From: Deltaproteobacteria bacterium
GTDB taxonomy: Bacteria > Desulfobacterota > Desulfobaccia > Desulfobaccales > 0-14-0-80-60-11
Reading direction: 5' to 3'
NCBI GenBank assembly: GCA_021813445.1
Contig: JAKAKP010000053.1
Location: 1 to 42,644, forward strand
DNA: 42,644 nucleotides
Shown here one piece after another: positions 35,045 to 37,461 of this stretch. Every line of letters starts with the position of its first letter. Position 1 is the first letter of the stretch. The notes below the pieces were generated by a model that was not told where the DNA came from, did not search any database, and was given only the letters and a program-made list of their open reading frames with translations. Both the position numbers and the translations under genes were made by a program.

Positions 35045-36190
35045 ATGGCTGCAATCTGTTGCCGCAGTTGCCACCGGCGTCTGCCGTTATCCAGCCCTTA
35101 CTGCTCCATCTGCGGCCAGCGCCTCTGGCCCCTGACCCCTGGAACATCAATCAGCCCGGCAGCCGCCGGCAGCCGTTTCCTGCCGATGGGGCCGGAGCTG
35201 GTGCAGGAGCAGGAGACCGGCCTCTGCTGGCAGCGCTCCGGTTCCTCAAAACCCCTGAGCCAGAGGGCGGCTCCGGCCTACGTGGCGGAGCTGAACCGCC
35301 AGGTCTGGGGCGGCCGCCGGGACTGGCGCCTGCCCCTGCTTCCCGAACTCATCAGTCTTTTCACCCGGGAGAAAAGCGCACTGGGCCTTTACATCGATCC
35401 CGTGTTCGACAGCCGCCAGCCCTTTTGTTGGAGCGACACCGCCAGTCCCGCCGGAGGTGTTTACGGCGTGCTGTTCTTCCCCGGCTCGGTGCAGGTCCAG
35501 TACCGGGACCAACGGGCCTTTATCCGGGCGGTGGCCGGGGAGAGTCCAAACCTGCCAGGCTGTGCTTCTTCCCCGGAGTTAATTAAGCAAGGCCGGGAGA
35601 TCTTGTATTGTCGCGGCCGGCGGCGGGTGCCCAGCCGCGGGGAAGTAGAAGACTTTCTCCAGAGAGGCGGAGTTTTCTCGGAGGTGTCCCTGGCGGCCAA
35701 GACGCAGCTCTATTTTGTGCCCACGGTCGAGTTTCTCCGGGCCTTGATCAGACTTTTCCGGCATTTGGGCGTCAAACAGGTGGTGGAAATCGGCGCGGCT
35801 GAGGGGTTTATGGCTGCGGCTTTGGCAGAGCTGGGGGTTCCGGTAATGGCTACCGACTTGGAGGCCATGCCGGGTGCGCCTTACGGGGTCCAGGTCCACC
35901 GGGTGAGCCACCTGGAGGCAGTGGCTGCTTTTCAACCGGAGCTGGCCTTCTGGTGCTGGCCGCCCCTGGGCTCCCGGGCTCCCCAGGAACTCTTGCAGGC
36001 TCCCGGCTTAAAATACTATCTGGACATAGGGGACGGCGGCTGCGCCACCGGCCTCCCCAACCTGGTGCCCCAATTCCGGGGTCGCTACCTCAATACCCTA
36101 TCCCGGCTGGGCTATACCCGGCTGGACTGGGGGCCTTTCCGCCATAACCGCTGTTTTTTGTTTTATAACCCCTTCAATGCCGTCTCATAG
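35045..36190 (+). CDS. Zinc-ribbon protein with C-terminal methyltransferase-like domain
   Basis: About 381 residues from ATG 35045 (MAAICCRSCHRRLP); an upstream in-frame start would lie in the preceding terminator. The N-terminal zinc ribbon pairs CRSC with CSIC (about residues 6-24). A middle part (LPELISLFTREKSALGLYIDP, GVYGVLFFPGSVQVQYRDQRAFIRAVAG) is unfamiliar. The C-terminal third has a Rossmann-like start, VKQVVEIGAAEGFMAAALAELG (about residues 239-260), then VPVMATDLEA, as in class I methyltransferases, but later motifs are degenerate. The end reads GYTRLDWGPFRHNRCFLFYNPFN. Substrate and activity unknown. It overlaps the convergent macro-domain gene by 28 bp. Confidence 0.7.
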   Translation: MAAICCRSCHRRLPLSSPYCSICGQRLWPLTPGTSISPAAAGSRFLPMGPELVQEQETGLCWQRSGSSKPLSQRAAPAYVAELNRQVWGGRRDWRLPLLPELISLFTREKSALGLYIDPVFDSRQPFCWSDTASPAGGVYGVLFFPGSVQVQYRDQRAFIRAVAGESPNLPGCASSPELIKQGREILYCRGRRRVPSRGEVEDFLQRGGVFSEVSLAAKTQLYFVPTVEFLRALIRLFRHLGVKQVVEIGAAEGFMAAALAELGVPVMATDLEAMPGAPYGVQVHRVSHLEAVAAFQPELAFWCWPPLGSRAPQELLQAPGLKYYLDIGDGGCATGLPNLVPQFRGRYLNTLSRLGYTRLDWGPFRHNRCFLFYNPFNAVS

Positions 36191-36690
36191 GCCGCATACG
36201 CGGCCCTGCCGAAGAGCACGAAGCGCACCCGCTCGATCTCCGGGTGCTCCGCCAGGTAGGCCTTGACGGTCTGCAAAGCGATGCGGGCCGCGGCCGCCAG
36301 GGGATAGCCGTAAGCCCCGGTGGAAATGGAGGGAAAGGCCACGGTCTTGATGCCTTTGGCAGTGGCCAGCTTCAGGCTCTCCCGGTAGCAGGAGGCCAGC
36401 AGCTCCGGCTCGCGGTGCAGCCCGTCCCGGTATACCGGGCCCACGGTGTGGATGACGTACCGGGCCTGGAGGTTGCCGCCCGTGGTGATCCGGGCCTCGC
36501 CGGTGGGGCAGCCGCCCAACTGGCGGCATTCTTCCAGGATTTTCGGCCCCCCGGCCCGGTGGATGGCGCCGTCCACCCCGCCTCCACCCAGCAGGGAGGT
36601 ATTGGCGGCGTTAACAATGGCCTCCGTGTCCTGGCGGGTGATGTCCCCTTCCTCCAACTCCAACACCGACTGTCCCACCTGGATTTCCAT
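36163..36690 (-). CDS. Macro-domain protein, ADP-ribose-binding (MacroD/YmdB-like)
   Basis: A 175-residue macro domain from ATG 36690, with GGAG upstream. Signature parts: GDITRQDTEAIVNAANTSLLGGGGVDGAIHRAGG (residues 15-48, ADP-ribose and catalytic loop), GCPTGEARITTGG, YVIHTVGPVY and VAFPSISTGAYGYPL (phosphate-binding loop). This matches MacroD-type O-acetyl-ADP-ribose deacetylases, which also remove mono-ADP-ribose from glutamate. In bacteria they may clear ADP-ribose signals or NAD breakdown products. Its 3' end runs 28 bp into the 3' end of the convergent zinc-ribbon gene. The selenoprotein gene lies 33 bp beyond its start on the same strand, upstream, so co-transcription is likely. Confidence 0.88.
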   Translation of the reverse strand: MEIQVGQSVLELEEGDITRQDTEAIVNAANTSLLGGGGVDGAIHRAGGPKILEECRQLGGCPTGEARITTGGNLQARYVIHTVGPVYRDGLHREPELLASCYRESLKLATAKGIKTVAFPSISTGAYGYPLAAAARIALQTVKAYLAEHPEIERVRFVLFGRAAYAAYETALKGL

Positions 36691-36723
36691 GCTCCGGCCT
36701 CCGGTCAAGTTTCGCTCATCATA

Positions 36724-37302
36724 TCACAGGCTGATCTGGACGTAGGGCTCGGCGCGCCTGAACCATTCGCTGTCAGGATACTTGGCCTTTAGTTCCTCAT
36801 AAACCGTGCGCAAGGGCTTGGGATCGTGGGTCATCTTGTATTTGGCCACTCCCAGGAAATAGATGGCTTCCGCCGCGGCCCGGGGATGGGGACACCGGCT
36901 CAGCATTTCTTCCAAGATGGCCCGGGCCTCGGCAAACTGTTCGATATCCAGGGCCCAACGGGCCTTGCCCACCATGAACAGGGGGATGAACTCCTCCGGC
37001 GGGACGTAGCCCACAGTCCGGTAATGCTCCTTGCCGTCGGCATCCAAAACCAGGATGGTGGGAGTCCAGGACACCCCGTATTTATCCATCAGGGCTTTGT
37101 CGGATACCTCTACTTGCACCGGGATGAAATTCAGGTCCACGAAACTGCCCACGCCTTCCGTAGGGTACGTAACCGCACCCATTTTCTGGCACCCCAGTCA
37201 CTGGGGGTTGAAGAAATCCAGGAGGATGGGCTTGTTAGTTTTCCTGGCGGTTTCCTGGGCTAAAGCCAAATCCTTGCCCCAACAAACTTGCAGCTTAGCC
37301 AT
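36724..37302 (-). CDS. Thioredoxin-like selenoprotein (U-x-x-C) with helical repeat tail
   Basis: Full length is 192 residues from ATG 37302 (AAGGAG eight bases upstream) if the in-frame TGA at 37198-37200 (codon 35) is read as selenocysteine. Residues 25-41 read PILLDFFNPQ-U-LGCQKM, placing U where thioredoxin-like relatives have the first cysteine of C-x-x-C. The frame continues without a break through VDLNFIPVQVEVSDKALMDKYGVSWTPTILVLDADGK in sequence, with the cis-proline loop SWTPTILVL. From about residue 110 a helical, TPR-like tail follows (FAEARAILEEMLSRCPHP, AIYFLGVAKYK). No signal peptide, so probably cytoplasmic. It should reduce disulfides or peroxides. A hairpin of bacterial SECIS type follows the TGA. 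Ordinary gene calling would start at 37182 and lose the active site. Confidence 0.8.
37173..37200 (-). promoter_or_regulatory. UGA (Sec) codon with SECIS-like hairpin
   Basis: Read on the minus strand, UGA (37200-37198) is followed after 23 nt by a hairpin loop: stem GGGUGC (37190-37185), loop GGUUAC, stem GUACCC (37178-37173), with one G-U pair. A G-starting apical loop 16-37 nt after UGA is the rule for bacterial SECIS elements bound by SelB. In addition CCCCAG and CUGGGG flank the UGA itself as a 6-bp inverted repeat. Confidence 0.65.
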
Positions 37303-37461
37303 AGTTTTACTCCTTGCTATCTTGGCGTTTCCAGTTGTATTTTAAATTAATCATCAAGCTCACATAAGCAAGGCAAAGACCGGTGGCGTCTCCCTGTGGG
37401 GTCTGACCCTGAATCGCATGGATTTTTCCACAGAAAATTAACGACTTAAGGGTGAAGCGGA

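Follow-up and report, generated by a model that had tools for sequence, protein, structure and literature searches.

The question raised by this locus is whether a TGA codon within an otherwise open thioredoxin-like frame ends translation or is read as selenocysteine (Sec). In the window, which is the entire stretch of 42,644 nucleotides that was analysed, the frame lies on the minus strand, as do all window features given below, and runs from an ATG at 37302-37300 to a terminal TGA at 36726-36724; the TGA at 37200-37198 is the sole in-frame stop between the two. The start is preceded, at a spacing of 7 nt, by an AAGGAG ribosome-binding site (37310-37315), and an AAGGAG- or GGAG-like site was found before the start of most homologues whose upstream region was read. 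Mechanical ORF calling picks the ATG at 37182 and reports a truncated frame of 152 amino acids (36724-37182) that lacks residues 1-40. Reading through the TGA yields a product of 192 residues (36724-37302) that contains the stretch ...DFFNPQ-U-LGCQKMGAVTYP... as well as, nearer to the C-terminus, the W-T-P motif with the cis-proline (Pro81, 37060-37062). The predicted Sec35 (37198-37200) takes the first redox position of a U-L-G-C motif, with Cys38 (37189-37191) as its resolving partner. The start codon, the single TGA and the start that a caller would choose had all been placed at these positions in a preliminary description of the locus, which also noted the AAGGAG site and proposed an unannotated selenoprotein; the selenocysteine machinery, the Sec/Cys homologues and a conserved hairpin support that proposal. 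Given the conservation of the UGA, the machinery, the hairpin and the fold, we consider it very highly probable that 36724-37302 codes for a full-length selenoprotein with Sec at the active site.

A first search of 59 related genomes recovered 25 full-length homologues, the window gene included. Exactly one in-frame TGA was present in 24 of these, at the same codon, and the homologue L033 carried a TGC. The closest relatives, 88-91% identical over residues 1-192, occurred in three congeneric genomes and each contained one TGA. Among 120 distinct genes the codon at the Sec column was TGA in 106, Cys in 12 and another sense codon in 2, and TAA or TAG was not found at all. This agrees with the earlier suggestions that the TGA falls on the first redox position with homologous sequence on either side, that homologues should carry Cys or Sec there, and that a chance nonsense mutation would hardly have hit this codon. 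Invariant within the homologue alignment were Ala19, Asp29, Phe30, Pro33, Gly37, Cys38 and W79-T80-P81, and the residues of the C-terminal TPR (tetratricopeptide) part were conserved as well. In the phylum sample the thioredoxin-TPR family was recovered from 86 of 395 genomes (about a fifth), and a scan of genome contigs added members from Geobacter (including L110 of Geobacter sp. OR-1, which is in culture), Candidatus Brocadia, Jettenia, other Planctomycetota, Gemmatimonadetes, Acidobacteria and a Thermomicrobium MAG, so that the hosts include Desulfobacterota, Planctomycetota, Gemmatimonadota, Acidobacteriota and others; the plasmid records that were scanned contained no full-length homologue. 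That the TGA is a nonsense mutation in a pseudogene, or a TGC or TGT miscalled in a draft genome of 166 contigs where this single codon breaks the frame, is effectively refuted by the comparative data and deserves practically no weight, as 106 distinct genes, drawn from several phyla and from numerous separate assemblies, share the same TGA, the protein is conserved on both sides of it, and TAA and TAG never occupy the codon.

The same alignment bears on the reading in which the UGA is a true stop and the real product of 152 amino acids starts at the internal ATG 37182. This ATG lies just 15 nt past the UGA and is the start picked by the caller. Against its use, residues 1-40 are conserved and contain the invariant Ala19, Asp29, Phe30, Pro33, Gly37 and Cys38, 14 of the 90 subtype-I homologues have a Leu codon (CTG or TTG) instead of the ATG, and the product would miss both the redox motif and the strands with which the fold begins. 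An internal start is, considering these data, exceedingly improbable.

The Cys forms are scattered over the homologue tree, with 7 label changes, and several of them are found on long branches beside Sec relatives. The pattern suggests that Sec was repeatedly replaced by Cys. One long-branch Cys form among close Sec relatives (L134) comes from a genome (G305) that gave no selB match and where Sec and its machinery have apparently been lost together. Two distant paralogs that belong to one family (f58; L137 and L142 in genomes G337 and G240) have Val or Glu in place of Sec and are apparently redox-inactive.

The genes that were to be looked for according to the preliminary description (selA, selB, selD and tRNA-Sec) are all present in the genome itself. 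We found a tRNA-Sec with anticodon TCA (76.2 bits, above the Rfam cut-off), a full-length selB (364 bits), a selA (598 bits) and a selD (371 bits; G000:C72:13215-14132, L044). The last of these itself contains a UGA, within the active-site sequence AGUASK, and is a positive control inside the genome. A selB match was obtained for 72 of the 75 genomes with a UGA form and for 5 of the 9 with only Cys or other forms (Fisher p=0.002), an association that is supportive and not decisive, since selB occurs in 353 of the 395 genomes of the phylum; three draft genomes with UGA forms gave no selB match.

A further reading accepts that the UGA is translated and holds that the inserted residue is not Sec: a suppressor tRNA would insert Cys, or UGA would stand for Trp in this lineage. 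In its favor, reassignment of UGA occurs in other lineages, and 12 homologues have Cys at the UGA position. On the other hand, the single tRNA with a UCA anticodon that was seen is a bona fide tRNA-Sec that scores above the Rfam cut-off, SelA, SelB and SelD are all present, and the hairpin described below is conserved in the UGA genes and lost in the Cys homologues. Moreover, the ordinary genes of the window end in TGA, and UGA is thus not a general sense codon here. We therefore judge the insertion of another residue very improbable and return to the selenoprotein as the preferred reading.

The search for a bacterial SECIS element, likewise suggested earlier, led to a conserved SECIS-type hairpin downstream of the UGA. 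The preliminary description had put a hairpin with a G-starting loop 23 nt after the TGA; such a hairpin is present, and the distance refers to the loop. In the window the element reads GGGUGCG-GUUA-CGUACCC (37180-37163; 7 bp), with a stem that starts 17 nt past the UGA and a loop, GUUA, that begins with a G at 24 nt. The surrounding RNA (37155-37200) folds at -18 kcal/mol (z -2.75). A covariance model, in which the window sequence was included, gave 37.8 bits for the window hairpin and no other match in the genome, and it gave no match when run on 11 Cys homologues. A second candidate, CUGG-GGUG-CCAG (37197-37186), directly follows the UGA and was rejected as SECIS, its stem not being kept in most homologues.

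Minimum-free-energy comparison with synonymous-codon resampling gave modest support, with 51 of the 106 UGA genes at 5% or lower, and for that reason the case for the hairpin is built on covariation and codon choice. Within 56 distinct homologous stretches one base pair swaps A-U (25) for G-C (18) and another U-A for A-U. Cells with both sides changed numbered 24 versus 10.9 in shuffles, none of the 500 reaching as high, although the controls remove relatedness only in part. Sliding the register by -2 columns resulted in a higher covariation score, yet fewer cells were then paired (70% versus 86%). The innermost pair is absent (A.C or C.C) in about half of the sequences, which gives a loop of six. 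With respect to codon choice, Thr at +10 is encoded by ACG in 75 of 77 cases, compared to 23% elsewhere in the same genes, and Gly at +7 by GGT in 33 of 33, compared to 14% elsewhere, which shows selection on the RNA. Of the 106 UGA genes, 100 have a stem of at least 6 pairs with a G among the first two loop bases, compared to 2 of the 12 Cys genes.

Beyond the subtype of the window, homologues form the stem from a different sequence that encodes different amino acids: the NTGPY subtype has GAAUACG-GGUC-CGUAUUC, the DAVAY subtype has ACGC-GGUC-GCGU, and Gemmatimonadetes and Acidobacteria have CUCGGC-UGGAU-GCCGAG, which lies nearer to the UGA. The subtypes with differently rebuilt SECIS stems (NTGPY, DAVAY and DAEVW; L094-L098, L110, L116-L123, L161 and L165) constitute a natural series for the evolution of SECIS elements within coding sequence.

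The best Pfam match of the protein is PF13098, Thioredoxin_2 (56.7 bits against a cut-off of 27), in which U-L-G-C is the UxxC motif. The AlphaFold model, obtained with 22 homologues (pLDDT 95.9, pTM 0.90), displays a DsbD-gamma-like thioredoxin fold (about residues 1-104; 36991-37302) followed by a short TPR tail (about residues 105-192; 36727-36990). Residue 35 opens the helix that follows the second strand, and tail helices span 102-119, 123-136, 140-158 and 162-174. Among solved structures, DsbD-gamma, DsbH-like and related thioredoxins come nearest, with Z 13-15 over residues 1-120. For the tail, a profile match was obtained with the TPR of CpoB (6g5s, E 9e-9), next to a weak match with TPR_14. 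The tail had been called unusual, which is not borne out: it is common to the members and characterizes the family.

Inspection by eye of the N-terminus revealed no signal peptide, and a cytosolic location is therefore suggested. The invariant Asp29 precedes Sec35 by six residues, and in E. coli thioredoxin Asp26 likewise lies six residues before Cys32, a spacing that would be in keeping with reductase chemistry. Based on fold and motif, the most likely role is that of a cytosolic disulfide reductase, to which we grant about an even chance of being correct. We infer the insertion of Sec itself, the cytosolic place, the direction of the reaction and the binding of a partner or client by the TPR tail according to the following scheme. 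SelB with Sec-tRNA(UCA) would bind the mRNA hairpin at 37180-37163 and direct Sec insertion at the UGA (37200-37198) instead of termination, whereas the same codon at 36726-36724 would terminate the protein. The selenolate at position 35 could then attack a substrate disulfide, making for a fast disulfide reductase, Cys38 would resolve the selenenylsulfide, and the TPR tail may hold a partner protein.

A macro-domain (PF01661) gene (36163-36708) is located on the same strand, 15 nt past the stop codon of the selenoprotein gene, and similar genes are found downstream in several close relatives. On account of this arrangement the two genes may be co-transcribed. Close relatives aside, no neighbor is kept family-wide, and the gene neighborhood thus provides no functional clue.

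Considering the combination of domains, the same selenoprotein might also be a CnoX-like chaperedoxin, a redox-active holdase that hands clients to GroEL, instead of a plain reductase. The protein shares with CnoX/YbbN an N-terminal thioredoxin domain and a C-terminal TPR part, and the Foldseek matches include YbbN/CnoX from E. coli (3qou) and the homologue from Salmonella (3qdn); E. coli CnoX was not among the matches listed by VIA-align, which excludes nothing. There is a precedent in Caulobacter CnoX, which is both a reductase and a holdase and exemplifies what a Trx-TPR protein can do (PMC6282202). Nevertheless, superposition of both domains on 3qdn and 3qou gives an rmsd of 11.7-12.0 Å, the tail is shorter and the domains are arranged in another way, the active site is of the UxxC type within NPxUxGC versus WCGPC/SxxC, and the fold is nearer to DsbD-gamma. 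A chaperedoxin role is conceivable on these grounds, and we rate it as rather unlikely.

Thioredoxin-fold selenoproteins are a well-known kind, and the protein identified here can be compared to several of them as well as to the Dsb proteins. The DsbD gamma domain and the DsbH-like thioredoxins are closest to residues 1-120 in both fold and sequence, whereas in the window protein no N-terminal signal or membrane domain was seen, Sec replaces the first Cys, and a TPR tail is present. The model for DsbD (NF001419), the membrane electron-transfer protein with alpha, beta and gamma parts, scored 38 bits against a cut-off of 330, with the gamma part alone matched. Three NCBIfam models of thioredoxin-like selenoproteins gave weak matches at the level of the domain and differ in motif and architecture: TsoB (NF045694), a rhodanese/DsbD fusion, of which the C-terminal thioredoxin part alone was matched (44.1 bits versus a cut-off of 805), VPGUxxT (NF041383; 28 versus 275 bits) and Trx7/PDZ (NF041199; 17 versus 300 bits). 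In the NCBIfam search the window protein was not seen to attain the cut-off of any model, and its relatives match the same models. As no curated NCBIfam model covers the thioredoxin-TPR family, current annotation probably lists many copies as truncated thioredoxin-like or TPR proteins without the catalytic residue, and a model of the NCBIfam type would mend the annotation across many genomes.

A second, smaller thioredoxin-like family was observed alongside, of around 115 amino acids and without a TPR tail, with the motif EG-U-PHC-xRxVRETH (L174-L179, L182 and L184). In six related genomes, of which one is congeneric, its catalytic position is an in-frame TGA; the genome studied here (contig C62) and one other encode Cys there (GCPHC). 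A member of this family yielded no NCBIfam model above cut-off.

We put forward only tentatively that the thioredoxin-TPR proteins, with their UxxC motif, form an uncatalogued selenoprotein family that acts in the cytosol as a Sec-dependent chaperedoxin or disulfide reductase, extends to several phyla, anammox Planctomycetota and Gemmatimonadota among them, and shows alternative SECIS stems and several independent Sec/Cys exchanges. Together, the Sec and Cys orthologs with known selB status present a clean case for Sec/Cys exchange and for the evolution of SECIS stems in coding sequence. A known system close to the family is a predicted selenoprotein named 'thiol:disulfide interchange protein', which originates from the survey by Kryukov and Gladyshev in 2004 (via PMC1794560 and PMC13188914). 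The latter, a 2026 review, gives it as PF13098 with UxxC (WP_011366075.1), and in 2006 it was placed in Syntrophus aciditrophicus, Geobacter metallireducens and G. uraniumreducens (PMC1794560). A TPR tail is mentioned in neither of two reviews, PMC13188914 being one. The window protein resembles it in the best match to PF13098, the UxxC motif and the deltaproteobacterial hosts, which include Geobacter and a Syntrophaceae MAG. Since domain, motif and hosts agree, the family of the window, as compared by description only, is probably the same as, or close to, the one predicted in 2004.
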